Assembly (NCBI GenBank): GCA_017395365.1
Contig: JAFPUN010000020.1
Span: 1-64,000 of the forward strand
Source: Bacteroidales bacterium
Lineage (GTDB): Bacteria; Bacteroidota; Bacteroidia; Bacteroidales; F082
Length of the DNA stretch: 64,000 nucleotides
Direction of reading: 5' to 3'
Below are positions 11,317 through 14,945 of this stretch, piece after piece (within the stretch, counting starts at the first letter, position 1; each line of letters begins with the position of its first letter). A program made the position numbers and the translations under genes. The notes beneath the pieces are model-generated. The model saw only the letters and a list, made by a program, of their open reading frames with translations, ran no database searches and had not been told where the DNA came from.

Positions 11317-12855
11317 TTATTTCGGAATCTTGAACATTCGCTTCCATCGGATGCCGCCATTTTCCTTGTCTCTTGAGAGCCAAACGAGGATGGGCTTTCC
11401 AACGATGTGGTTTTCGGGGACAAAGCCCCAATAGCGCGAATCGGCGGAATTGTGGCGGTTGTCGCCCATCATCCAATAGTAGTCCATCTCGAAGGTGTAG
11501 CTGTCCGCAGGCTTCCCGTCGATGTAGATTTGGCTACCTTCCACTTTCAGATCGTGGAGTTCGTAGGCATGGATGACACGCTCATAAAGTGGCAGTGTGG
11601 TGAGGTCCAGCTTCACTGTTTCGCCTTTCTTCGGGATGTAAATGGGACCGTAGTTGTCAACATTCCATGGGTAGAGGTCGGGACGATGGGGGAAGATGCT
11701 GGTGTTGGTGCCTTGGCCCGGGGCTTCCACATTGCGCATCACCGAGGTAATGTAAGGCAGCTTGATGAGTTCGTCGGCCACTTTCGCGCTGATGTTAAGG
11801 ACAAAGGTGTTTTCATCAATGGGGTAGCCTTCGGTGATGTCGTATTTTTCCACGGTCTGCTTGTTGATGCCGCCAGTGGTAGTCACCACGGTGTAGTTAT
11901 GCTGCATGTTCTCGGGCTCGTAGGCCTTTTCTCCATCGATATAGACCACGCCGTCAACGATTTTCAGGTTGTCGCCAGGCATTCCGATGAGGCGTTTCAC
12001 ATAGTTCTCGCGCTTGTCGACAGGATGGGCGATGACTTTGCCGCTCGGGGTCGGTTGACCGTTGAGGCCTAAAGTCACCTTACCGTTCCAAACGGCTTCG
12101 CGCCCGTATTCGCGAACAAGGTCATAATAGCTGACGCTGCTTTGATAGTTCTCGCACACAGTGTCGCCAGCGGGGTAGTTGAACACGATGGGATCGTAAC
12201 GCTTCATCGTTGTCACACCAGGATAGCGGTGATAAGGCATCTTGATCCATTCCACATATGATTTTTTGCTCTTGCTCCACGGCAGGGTGTTGTGCACGAA
12301 GGGGAATGAGAGTGGCGTGTTAGGGCCTTTGGGTCCATAATGTATCTTGCTGACAACCAGATAATCACCAACGCAAAGGGATTTCTCCATACTCGATGTA
12401 GGGATGGTGAACATCTCGAAGACATAGGTCCTGATAATCAATGCAGCGACTACGGCGAAGACAATGGCGTCGAACCACTCGCGGGCGGTTGATTTCTTGG
12501 GGCGTTTGGTCGTGAGCGGGTCTTGGTATTTATCGTCTTTGGCGATGATGGGGAAGAAAATGAAGGGCAGAATGGCGGCCATGCCTTCCTCCCAGACCTT
12601 GAATCGGCCAAAGCACTTGCCTAGCTCGACGAGCATGAGCAGCAGCATGAAGATGTTGATGTAGGGGAAGACGATGAAGAACCACCACCAGAACTTCTTC
12701 TGTTTGCCGATGATTTTCAGCATGACATAGATGTTGTAGTAGGGGATGAGGCTATAATAGCCTTTTTGTCCGGCTTTCTCGAATTGCTTCCAGCAGAAGG
12801 CAATCGGGATGGTAAACAGTGCCGGGACGATAAGAATGAAAAGTATGAGTGACAT
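11317..12855 (-). CDS. lepB: Signal peptidase I with N-terminal membrane extension
   Basis: A 512-residue inner-membrane serine protease that removes signal peptides. The catalytic Ser155 sits in IPTSSMEKSL and the general-base Lys287 in YVKRLIGMPGD. The late conserved box GDNRHNSADSRYWGFVPE is intact. The first about 110 residues are extra compared with E. coli LepB and form several membrane segments with the DUF5684-like motif AGQKGYYSLIPYYN, an arrangement I know from other Bacteroidales. A further anchor lies near 128-146. The family's usual length is 200-330 residues. It has its own -7 element and terminator. Confidence 0.95.
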   Translation of the reverse strand: MSLILFILIVPALFTIPIAFCWKQFEKAGQKGYYSLIPYYNIYVMLKIIGKQKKFWWWFFIVFPYINIFMLLLMLVELGKCFGRFKVWEEGMAAILPFIFFPIIAKDDKYQDPLTTKRPKKSTAREWFDAIVFAVVAALIIRTYVFEMFTIPTSSMEKSLCVGDYLVVSKIHYGPKGPNTPLSFPFVHNTLPWSKSKKSYVEWIKMPYHRYPGVTTMKRYDPIVFNYPAGDTVCENYQSSVSYYDLVREYGREAVWNGKVTLGLNGQPTPSGKVIAHPVDKRENYVKRLIGMPGDNLKIVDGVVYIDGEKAYEPENMQHNYTVVTTTGGINKQTVEKYDITEGYPIDENTFVLNISAKVADELIKLPYITSVMRNVEAPGQGTNTSIFPHRPDLYPWNVDNYGPIYIPKKGETVKLDLTTLPLYERVIHAYELHDLKVEGSQIYIDGKPADSYTFEMDYYWMMGDNRHNSADSRYWGFVPENHIVGKPILVWLSRDKENGGIRWKRMFKIPK

Positions 12856-12964: not shown

Positions 12965-13003
12965 TTGGTACACAATTTTGTGGACCACAAGTTTGTGTAC
13001 TAA
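12965..13003. repeat. 39-bp palindrome, upstream copy flanking the AAA ATPase gene
   Basis: Two 19-base arms are centred on A12984. The inner TTGTGG-A-CCACAA and the outer GTACACAA/TTGTGTAC are perfectly self-complementary, with three mismatched pairs elsewhere. A closely related copy lies at 14207-14245, just past the ATPase gene, in the same relative orientation. The -33 box of the ATPase promoter lies within the right arm, so this copy may also be an operator. Confidence 0.85.
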
Positions 13004-13023
13004 AAGAAAAATGTTTATTTTTG
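12992..13023 (+). promoter_or_regulatory. Promoter of the AAA ATPase gene, overlapping the palindrome
   Basis: TTTG (12992-12995), a 20-base spacer, then TATTTTTG (13016-13023): a full match to the Bacteroidota -33/-7 consensus. The start codon is 20 bases after the -7 element. Because the -33 box is inside the palindrome, anything binding the palindrome should control this promoter. Confidence 0.75.
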
Positions 13024-13043
13024 CACCAAAATTTAATGGAATC

Positions 13044-14171
13044 ATGAAGAAATCTTTCATTTATGGGGTGGCCGTAAAAGGCGACAACTTTACAGATCGT
13101 GTAAAGGAGACCAGGCGTCTGAAACAAGACTTCGAAAATGGGCAGAACATGATACTTATTTCTCCTCGAAGAATGGGTAAGACTTCTCTCGTGAGGAAAG
13201 TCCAGACGCTTGTGGACGCACAATCCATTGTGACTGTATATATGGATATCTATGACTGCCGCAATGAATATGAGTTCTATAACAAGTTTGCTGCAGCATT
13301 GATGAAGCAAACTGCAGGCAAAGCCGAGGCCGTCATGAAGAACATCAAGGAGTTTTTGGTTCGCTTGTCGCCGACTATCTCGTTTGGTCCCGACCCTAAC
13401 AACGAGTTGTCTATCTCTCTAGGCATCACGCCAAAAGACTATTCTCCGGAGGAGATTCTGCAACTGCCTGAACGCATGGCGGCCAAGATGGGTAAGCACA
13501 TTGTTGTTTGCATCGACGAATTCCAACAGATTGGGGAGTTTCCTGATTCGCTTACAGTGCAGAAGAAAATGCGCGGCGTTTGGCAGTTGCAAAGCAATGC
13601 CTCTTATTGCTTGTTTGGAAGCAAAAAGCACTTGCTTGCCAATCTTTTCCAAAACAAGAGAATGCCTTTTTACCAGTTTGGCGACATCATGTTCCTTCAA
13701 CCAATCCCTACGGAAGACTGGATTCCCTTTATCCGCCAGAAGTTTGAGGAAAAGGGCATGAGCATTTCAGATGCCATTATCGAAAAGATATGTTCGATAG
13801 TGGAAAACCAGTCCTCGTATGTGCAACAACTGGCTTGGAACGTCATGCTCAACACCACTAAAAAGGCTGACGAGGCTGCTTTGGAAACCGCCATTGAGGA
13901 CCTTCTGAACCAAAACTCGTTGCTGTTTTTGCAGCAAATAGAGAACCTGACTGCCTATCAAATGAACTTTCTGAAAGCCGTTGCCAAAGGCGTACACACG
14001 GATTTCACTTCCAAAGAGGTGTTATCCAACTATGACTTGGGTTCGAAGTCCAATGTCACAAGAATCAAGACCGTATTGACACAAAAAGAACTGATAGAGC
14101 AAACACCTAACGGAATCGTGCTTACAGACCCCGTTTTTGAATTGTGGTTTGTTAGGGAATGGTGTAATTAA
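13044..14171 (+). CDS. Accessory AAA-family ATPase with C-terminal winged helix
   Basis: A 375-residue P-loop ATPase of the 'ATP-binding protein' type that occurs in many copies in Bacteroidales. Walker A is PRRMGKTSL (residues 41-49) and Walker B IVVCIDEF (153-160). The last about 70 residues (from about 305) look like a winged-helix domain ending LTDPVFELWFVREW, a tail typical of the archaeal-type ATPase/DUF234 group. I start it at MKKSFIYG, 20 bases after a strong promoter. It is on the plus strand between two minus-strand genes (lepB, dapB) and is bounded by two copies of a palindrome. Its biological function is unknown: nothing here identifies a partner protein. Confidence 0.85.
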   Translation: MKKSFIYGVAVKGDNFTDRVKETRRLKQDFENGQNMILISPRRMGKTSLVRKVQTLVDAQSIVTVYMDIYDCRNEYEFYNKFAAALMKQTAGKAEAVMKNIKEFLVRLSPTISFGPDPNNELSISLGITPKDYSPEEILQLPERMAAKMGKHIVVCIDEFQQIGEFPDSLTVQKKMRGVWQLQSNASYCLFGSKKHLLANLFQNKRMPFYQFGDIMFLQPIPTEDWIPFIRQKFEEKGMSISDAIIEKICSIVENQSSYVQQLAWNVMLNTTKKADEAALETAIEDLLNQNSLLFLQQIENLTAYQMNFLKAVAKGVHTDFTSKEVLSNYDLGSKSNVTRIKTVLTQKELIEQTPNGIVLTDPVFELWFVREWCN

Positions 14172-14206
14172 TTTAATGATTTTAAATTAGTTACAATGAT
14201 ATAATA

Positions 14207-14245
14207 ACGGTTCACAACTTTGTGGACCACAATTCTATGTACCAA
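14207..14245. repeat. 39-bp palindrome, downstream copy flanking the AAA ATPase gene
   Basis: Centred on A14226 with the same core TTTGTGGACCACAA as the upstream copy; GGT-CACAA and TGTAC-AA in the arms are shared as well. The arms are less symmetrical than in the upstream copy. It overlaps the last three codons and the stop (TAG, 14235-14237) of dapB. Confidence 0.8.
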
Positions 14246-14945
14246 ACAAATCTTCCATCCCAAACACCCCCGTTTTTCCGATAAGGAACTCGGCAGCGGC
14301 GATAGCGCCCATGGCGAAGCCTTGGCGGTTGAAAGCCTCATGGGTGAGGGTGATTTTGTCGGCAGGCGACTCGGCCATCACGCTGTGGATGCCGTTTACC
14401 TCGCCTTCGCGGGTCACTTTAATAAATAAGGTATGATCAGCTGGAGCGTCGATGCTCCAACGCTCGTAATCGTGGTCGATGGCGAGGATGTCGTTGGCCA
14501 GTTTGACGGCGGTTCCGCTGGGCTTGTCGAGTTTGTGGATGTGGTGCGTCTCGGCCATGGAGAGTTGGTAACCATACTTTTCCGCGAACTTGGCCAGTTG
14601 CTTGTTGAGCAGGAACATGATGTTCATCCCAATGCTGAAGTTGGGTGCGGTGAAGAGGCTTTGCTTTTCTGCCATACAGCGTTGTTTGATTTCCTCGAAA
14701 TGGTTCTGCCAGGCTGTGGTGCCCACTACGACAGGCTTGTGCATATCAAAGCAGCGGTGGATGTTGTTCACCACTTGGTCGGGCTGGCTGAAATCGATGG
14801 CGACATCGGCTTGTTTGACAAGTTCAAGTCGTTCTTCCCATTCTTGAGGATTATCGACAGTAACGACGATGCTATGTTGGCGGGCGAGGGCGGCTTTTTC
14901 CACCTCGTGGCCCATCTTTCCGTATCCGATTATTGCGATTTTCAT
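14235..14945 (-). CDS. dapB: 4-hydroxy-tetrahydrodipicolinate reductase
   Basis: A 236-residue enzyme of the lysine/diaminopimelate pathway that reduces hydroxy-tetrahydrodipicolinate with NAD(P)H. The N-terminal nucleotide-binding motif IIGYGKMGHEVE (residues 4-15), VVGTTAW, the APNFSIGMN motif and the catalytic ETHHIHKLDKPSGTA box are all present. It is a little shorter than the 270-residue proteobacterial form, as usual in Bacteroidota. It follows the DUF5683 gene by 3 bases, in the run parA-parB-DUF5683-dapB. Its stop codon is inside the palindrome that borders the accessory ATPase. Confidence 0.95.
   Translation of the reverse strand: MKIAIIGYGKMGHEVEKAALARQHSIVVTVDNPQEWEERLELVKQADVAIDFSQPDQVVNNIHRCFDMHKPVVVGTTAWQNHFEEIKQRCMAEKQSLFTAPNFSIGMNIMFLLNKQLAKFAEKYGYQLSMAETHHIHKLDKPSGTAVKLANDILAIDHDYERWSIDAPADHTLFIKVTREGEVNGIHSVMAESPADKITLTHEAFNRQGFAMGAIAAAEFLIGKTGVFGMEDLFGT

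Follow-up and report, generated by a model that had tools for sequence, protein, structure and literature searches.

A Bacteroidales ATPase gene with a predicted private operator array at its promoter and a second array copy at the end of dapB

ATPases of the PF01637 (ATPase_2) type are numerous and, to our knowledge, mostly without assigned function, and the family accession is rarely mentioned in the open-licence literature. Horizontally mobile and patchily distributed regulators with a palindromic operator over their own promoter are found in toxin-antitoxin operons and among the C-protein genes of restriction-modification systems. Here we examine an ATPase gene of the PF01637 type, and the repeat arrays on either side of it, in a 64,000-nucleotide stretch from a Bacteroidales bacterium of lineage F082 (assembly GCA_017395365.1, contig JAFPUN010000020.1, positions 1 to 64,000), hereafter called the window. 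Among described proteins, the archaeal AAA+/STAND ATPases SSO1545 (2fna) and PABY2304 (2qen) belong to the same family and are 17 and 16% identical to the window ATPase; no report of a private promoter array was found for either of them in the open-licence literature. The mycobacterial signal-transduction ATPase IniR, an AAA+ protein likened to SSO1545, possesses a DNA-binding domain and binds a promoter, and the accessible part of its description gives a protein of 818 amino acids with a MalT-like domain and an SdiA-like DNA-binding domain that controls iniBAC (PMC5760070).

We consider it probable, from sequence and predicted structure, that the window ATPase gene and the array at its promoter spread together as a small module, in which the array would be bound by the protein's own winged helix and the gene would repress itself. 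The repeat unit is a dyad of 12 base pairs (bp), CACAANNTTGTG, and the copy upstream of the gene consists of two such dyads whose starts lie 15 bp apart. We compared homologous loci (the best 80 of 117, from named genome contigs) for any 5-bp arm in this 15-bp-period geometry with at most 2 mismatches in 20, within 160 bp upstream of the gene. A promoter-side array is present in 71 of 79 homologs (L101, which has no upstream sequence, is not counted), as compared to 1 of 1580 shuffled upstream regions, and the -7 box starts 16-20 nucleotides (nt) past the last dyad in 55 of the 64 CACAA-type arrays of homologs. In the window, the spacing between TTTG and TATTTTTG fits what we take to be the -33 and -7 consensus of Bacteroidetes promoters. 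More distant relatives carry arrays with other arms: paralogs of the genus at 38-54% identity have AATAA, TATAA or CAAAT arms, mostly with a 15-bp period and in some cases in long arrays, and a homolog in IMG/VR has AAGAA arms.

The arm sequence covaries with the protein. After 10 of 127 rows with another or no arm class had been dropped (L101, L108, L110 and L111 were left out here and in the -7 box analysis), residues 340 and 336 were, among 369 columns, the two that covaried most strongly with arm class (ranks 1 and 2), and both lie in the helix 335-347, the predicted recognition helix. Arg340 accompanies CACAA arms in 66 of 67 cases, Ile340 accompanies AATAA or TATAA arms in 20 of 22 and Asn340 CAAAT arms in 11 of 11, while CACCA arms go with Lys340 in 14 of 14; in a tree from which the winged helix was excluded, these cases fall at three separate positions along the order of the tips. 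The columns ranked 3 to 7 (135, 76, 250, 203 and 298) lie outside this domain, and their covariation probably stems from shared descent. The position of the array at the promoter, together with the covariation of its arms with residues 340 and 336, makes an operator of the ATPase itself the likeliest role of the palindrome, a prediction in which the winged helix would bind the promoter array and this binding would repress the promoter.

A number of observations weigh against this reading. The array rule misses 8 of the 79 loci, three of which (L081, L103, L114) carry an array 172-224 bp upstream; in a clade at 61-64% identity the -7 box precedes the array; and among 14 distant paralogs in genome G383 (L336-L349) just one has an array within two mismatches. 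CACTA arms are mixed, with two Arg and one Lys, and arm and residue change jointly on few branches (6 and 10 Fitch changes), so that the 117 rows amount to far fewer independent events. An order-wide scan found CACAA arrays with at most one mismatch at 12 places in 10 of 393 genomes (control hits, 0), of which five adjoin an intact homolog, one adjoins only a fragment and six, half of all sites, have no homolog within 1.5 kb. Finally, homology extends beyond the arrays on both sides in L049/L061 and on the right side in L037/L039, so what moved did not always end at an array. Two of the array-bearing genomes, G423 and G324, lack any homolog at E <= 1e-20, and five others (G330, G478, G490, G383 and G066) have theirs elsewhere in the genome; a solo array could be a scar or a target in trans. 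When 13 genomes picked for holding a homolog were scanned with up to 2 mismatches, arrays appeared in 10 of them at 16 places, and 12 of the 15 places read adjoin a homolog. The two most distant paralogs of the window's own genome (28% identity) have no array by the same rule, and several of the G383 paralogs have some repeat or palindrome of differing design near their promoter.

The features of the locus are as follows; the ATPase gene is the sole gene between the two arrays.

11317..12855, minus strand: lepB, signal peptidase I (TIGR02227, above cut-off)
12967..13000, plus strand: left (upstream) array, GGTACACAA-TTTTGTG-GAC-CACAAGTTTGTG-TAC, predicted operator, 0 mismatches to the array model
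12971-12982 and 12986-12997, plus strand: left-array dyads, both CACAANNTTGTG, period 15 bp
12992..12995, plus strand: TTTG, predicted -33 promoter element, inside the second left dyad and 20 nt before the -7 box
13016..13023, plus strand: TATTTTTG, predicted -7 box (TAnnTTTG), 18 nt past the last dyad
13044..14171, plus strand: AAA+/STAND-type ATPase, 375 amino acids, with C-terminal winged helix (Pfam ATPase_2, PF01637)
13953..14165, plus strand: predicted winged-helix domain, residues 304-374 (AlphaFold2 model; covariation with the array arms)
14046-14084, plus strand: predicted recognition helix, residues 335-347
14049-14051, plus strand: Ser336 codon
14061-14063, plus strand: Arg340 codon
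14172..14208, plus strand: 3' spacer from the ATPase stop codon to the right array, with matches in related units, in a remnant in G080 and, over about 10 bp, in G066
14209..14244, plus strand: right (downstream) array, overlapping the dapB stop codon, 2 mismatches to the array model
14213-14224 and 14228-14239, plus strand: right-array dyads, CACAACTTTGTG and CACAATTCTATG, the latter degenerate
14235..14945, minus strand: dapB, 4-hydroxy-tetrahydrodipicolinate reductase (TIGR00036, above cut-off), its stop codon within the right array

An initial annotation of the window had described the same palindrome on either side of a plus-strand ATPase gene between lepB and dapB, with the downstream copy overlapping the dapB stop, and both descriptions hold. 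The two 38-nt copies (12967-13004 and 14209-14246) are 84% identical over 38 nt, and the dapB stop codon (14235-14237) is supplied by the right copy, the dapB C-terminus then reading LFGT; the dapB of the array-free locus L118 ends LFGE. The term palindrome was apt in so far as each copy is an imperfect one, with 14 of 16 arm positions paired in the left copy and 11 of 16 in the right, but the actual unit is the pair of 12-bp dyads set 15 bp apart. That annotation had looked to further copies elsewhere in the same genome, and the exact core TTGTGGACCACAA occurs in this 2.1-Mb assembly (72.6% complete) only twice, both times at this locus. It had also named chance similarity of the two copies, with the palindrome absent elsewhere, as one refutation. 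The degenerate right copy would suit a chance likeness of two AT-rich palindromes, yet the best-matching 30-mers of the two flanks agree at 26/30 positions, whereas none of 500 sequences resampled from a dinucleotide Markov model exceeds 22, and relatives carry the downstream copy as well, which makes coincidence vanishingly improbable and led us to reject it.

The downstream copy has a far narrower distribution than the upstream one. A scan of 250 bp behind the gene for CACAA, CACCA and CACTA arms (with hardly any sequence available past the gene in L108 and L084) found an array in 15 of 16 loci of the clade with at least 80% identity, as well as in the window, and in 2 of the 64 other homologs. 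The right copy is a derived extra, nearly confined to this clade, in which a duplication likely placed the array behind the gene as well. The sole locus of the 16 without a right array, L044 (G025), also has Gly340 and a mismatch in its left array and is perhaps a decaying protein/site pair. It is unlikely that the downstream copy acts as a transcription terminator, or as an insulator, for the ATPase and dapB genes: it does lie between these two convergent genes here, and each copy is a dyad able to form a hairpin, but no T run follows the right copy, its sequence is that of the operator, and most homologs do without it.

Homologs at E <= 1e-60 are present in 46 of 99 genomes of the genus, and 17 genomes have one, partial in one case, that is at least 80% identical to the window ATPase. 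By their shared flanks, the latter units lie at about six sites, the window's included, and the repeat-ATPase-repeat arrangement recurs at about five more places in the genus, as the initial annotation had anticipated. We compared the ATPase with three other genes, two of which adjoin sites A and B on the left, over all 120 pairs of 16 of the 17 genomes (the partial gene of G014 was left out). Between G075 (site B) and G065 (site C) the ATPase genes are 97.2% identical at the nucleotide level and the three other genes 80.0%; between G056 (site E) and G084 (site A) the values are 96.6 and 82.5%. For G089 and G065, which carry the ATPase at different sites, the relation is inverted, with 96.1% identity for the other genes and 80.7% for the ATPase. 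ATPase identity far above that of other genes across sites indicates that in part of the clade the gene is passed on separately from the chromosome; it has likely gone from one rumen bacterium to another as well as from one chromosomal site to another. For the window unit itself, compared with the units of site A, site F and G056, the divergence of the ATPase is about that of the other genes (-0.03 to +0.03). Incoming units would be inserted by homologous or illegitimate recombination, without an enzyme of their own. A phage or plasmid carrier was considered and rejected, no vehicle having been found in IMG/VR or among GenBank phages and plasmids: the CACAANNTTGTGGNCCACAANNTTGTG array has no match in IMG/VR, where seven contigs hold homologs at 29-51% identity (five with other arrays at up to 2 mismatches, two without), and the GenBank homolog records include 2 from phages and 22 from plasmids, all below 60% identity.

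It might be asked whether the two arrays are what moves the gene, as ends of a minimal mobile cassette in which array-ATPase-array is inserted and excised by an enzyme of the host or of another element. In favour of such a cassette are the presence of both arrays in nearly all units of the clade with at least 80% identity, the spread of these units over about six sites, homology edges that fall at the array (the left edge in L037/L039, the right edge in G084 compared with G086), and the single-array sites and array-bounded rearrangements described below. However, units with an array on the promoter side only relocate too. L050/L052 and L051/L059 are 93% identical without a common flank, their homology beginning at the array and stopping within about 20 bp of the stop codon, and of 42 one-sided pairs with at least 80% nucleotide identity, 29 have no shared flank and 6 share both; for 55 two-sided pairs the numbers are 38 and 4, some flanks being short in both sets. 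Since one-sided units move as well, the array pair is not the transfer device. Moreover, neither the promoter position of the array nor its covariation with the protein requires a role in mobility, simple deletion between direct repeats also yields single-array sites, and no clean short target-site duplication was seen in a by-eye reading of the sites. We regard the cassette as possible, though not likely. The earlier proposal of a mobile unit without a transposase therefore stands in that the gene moves and the unit, with the ATPase gene alone between its arrays, contains no transposase, and falls in that the repeat is first of all a predicted operator and the pair does not carry the gene, the array being general upstream and rare downstream outside the clade.

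A related candidate was set aside. An insertion sequence or a miniature inverted-repeat transposable element with the arrays as ends was rejected, as terminal repeats are not present at both ends of every copy. Direct repeats outside the arrays in L047-L049, L061, L069, L080, L086, L088-L091 and L095, considered as possible target duplications, range from 16 to 115 bp with no common size, and those of 39-96 bp in L047-L049 and L061 may be host repeats.

Arrays also occur without the gene. The exact core gave 49 hits in 24 of the 99 genomes of the genus, whereas its reversal, used as control, gave 7, and 7 hits of the core without array geometry, inside open frames of 274-1003 amino acids, equal the number expected by chance. 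Occupied sites, scars and array-free loci were read by eye, and seven loci (L146, L155, L156, L159, L162, L166, L167) proved to be solo arrays without the ATPase, one further hit in G084 being unread. At site A, array-ATPase-array is or was present in G068, G084, G086, G069 and G014 (in G014 split by contig ends), a single array is found in G071, G065 and G089 and shorter scars in G019, G060 and G020, and 18 of the 30 loci read have no array. Site B is occupied in G089 and G075; G088 has one array there, whose halves match the outer halves of the two arrays of G089, and G007 has one array with the right flank in common. Single arrays at places where relatives have array-ATPase-array suggest that units were likely lost by exchange between the arrays: two direct copies would let the gene drop out and leave one array as a scar. 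Beside site B, L166:1193-1490 is a dispersed segment of about 300 bp, which numerous genomes of the genus match at numerous places (about 70-93% identity).

Arrays bound larger rearrangements in Muribaculaceae. In L102 and L109 several arrays delimit gene blocks, including an unrelated PF09820/PDDEXK_9 gene, and the block order differs between the two genomes; most of the breaks coincide with an array or lie no more than about 10 bp from one, and one break (L102:8042) lies elsewhere. At a second locus of the first Muribaculaceae genome, a single array has on its left side the left flank of array 1 and on its right side the initial 37 bp of array 3's right flank. The single arrays and the rearrangements are in keeping with arrays that serve as direct repeats between which DNA is deleted or exchanged, by whatever enzyme. 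Within L102:5922-12431, five copies of one array lie in about 6.5 kb and flank the PF09820/PDDEXK_9 gene on both sides.

The ATPase scores 34.7 bits against the PF01637 profile (curated cut-off 33.2; the L102 homolog scores 37.9), and the P-loop residues S40, R42, R43, G45 and K46 and the Walker B pair D158-E159 are invariant across 61 sequences. The AlphaFold2 model (predicted local distance difference test, pLDDT, 89.9) consists of an AAA+ domain and a winged helix. Its closest folds are 2qen and 2fna, with the same fold spanning both domains, which places it in the SSO1545/PABY2304 fold group; DNA-binding ORC/Cdc6 proteins come next, and TnsC and MuB are also similar. These last likenesses, together with the single-array scars and the array-bounded rearrangements, would suit a model in which the arrays are attachment sites and the ATPase itself promotes insertion and exchange. 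A profile search found no recombinase or nuclease domain in the protein, though, and fold alone proves no function, and we deem this model improbable. As for known defence families, the protein is not a member of the NCBIfam anti-phage family DS41_1 (20.6 bits against an equivalog cut-off of 370), nor of a family in PADLOC, where matches have E 3e-5 or weaker and cover 71-74 residues only. A role in genetic conflict, of the defence type, is a guess from the STAND-like fold and the patchy spread.

At the dapB-lepB site, first taken for a conserved neighbourhood, the insertion proved to be no fresh arrival. The neighbourhood is conserved only in part, lepB lying beside dapB in 13 of 29 other dapB loci and not in 16 (flanks of up to 1.5 kb). 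As expected for an insertion, nine relatives have dapB next to lepB with a gap of 61-114 bp and no array, and some others keep a single repeat. G053 has a unit beside the same left flank as the window, with a further insert before dapB, and G080 retains a remnant with the last codons of the ATPase, the spacer and the right array. A less clear remnant in G066, an array plus about 10 bp matching the spacer, has a DUF2442 gene and lepB next to it, with dapB 2.8 kb away. Cassettes at dapB-lepB differ across relatives, several of which have an AAA_14/DUF4143 ATPase with its own 33-bp tandem repeats reaching the dapB end (the family was checked in L121; at these loci only the dapB side is seen, lepB lying beyond the flank). 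The G053 unit, the remnants and the empty and alternative versions together point to a site of turnover, and to an insertion older than the window's own species. In L121 the AAA_14/DUF4143 ATPase (43-1329) and the 33-bp repeats (1377-1499, 3.7 copies, just upstream of the gene) present the pattern of a gene with a private repeat once more in another ATPase family; by eye, L119, L125-L127, L130 and L131 are of the same type, and G057 (L120) apparently keeps one 33-bp repeat without the gene. In G066 (L260:1630-2284), and similarly by eye in L118, a DUF2442/helix-turn-helix gene with a likely small partner lies between dapB and lepB, possibly a module of the toxin-antitoxin type.

A wider proposal, which we put forward tentatively and think has a small chance of being right, is that of a large family of roaming ATPase modules of one gene, each with a private 15-bp-period array and a code in one residue of the recognition helix (Arg for CACAA, Lys for CACCA, Ile or Asn for A/T-rich arms), in which the arrays serve as operator and as landing and exchange points without a transposase, and the ATPase guards its own copy against duplicates. 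On the last point, same-array pairs within a genome number 0 of 24 against a shuffled mean of 3.43 (P 0.018), a weak result with array types regrouped by hand: G075 was assigned to CACCA, AACAA/GAC of G045 was placed with CACAA/GNC, and AAA, TTT, TTA, TAA and TGA centres were pooled. The test covered 16 of the 17 genomes with at least two matches (G014 out) and 3 of the 4 genes of G084.

The fold family and self-repression are of known kinds; for a private array in each lineage with a one-residue match we found no description in the open-licence literature. Such a match between one residue and one arm would make the DNA targets of an orphan family readable from sequence. An operator copied past its gene would create a deletable unit, and thus a transposase-free origin for a "palindrome cassette", and this duplication would leave behind solo operators that resemble unexplained palindromic repeats. 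The archaeal Orc1/Cdc6 initiators match the ATPase in fold at 11-14% identity, but the setting differs, the window array being part of a single gene's promoter rather than an origin. IniR, as far as the available part of its description goes, has the combination of AAA+ and DNA-binding domains in common with the window ATPase and differs in its length of 818 amino acids and its MalT-like and SdiA-like domains. Like the minimal mobile elements of Neisseria, as presented in the accessible portion of that report (PMC3082526), the dapB-lepB interval hosts alternative genes, namely this ATPase, the AAA_14/DUF4143 ATPase or the DUF2442 gene; unlike them, as far as that portion shows, near-identical ATPase units also lie at unrelated sites, so that exchange through conserved flanks alone does not explain their spread. 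From toxin-antitoxin and C-protein modules the window unit differs in having a P-loop ATPase as its regulator and no partner gene in the unit, and it resembles them in its predicted operator over its own promoter, its mobility and its patchiness.
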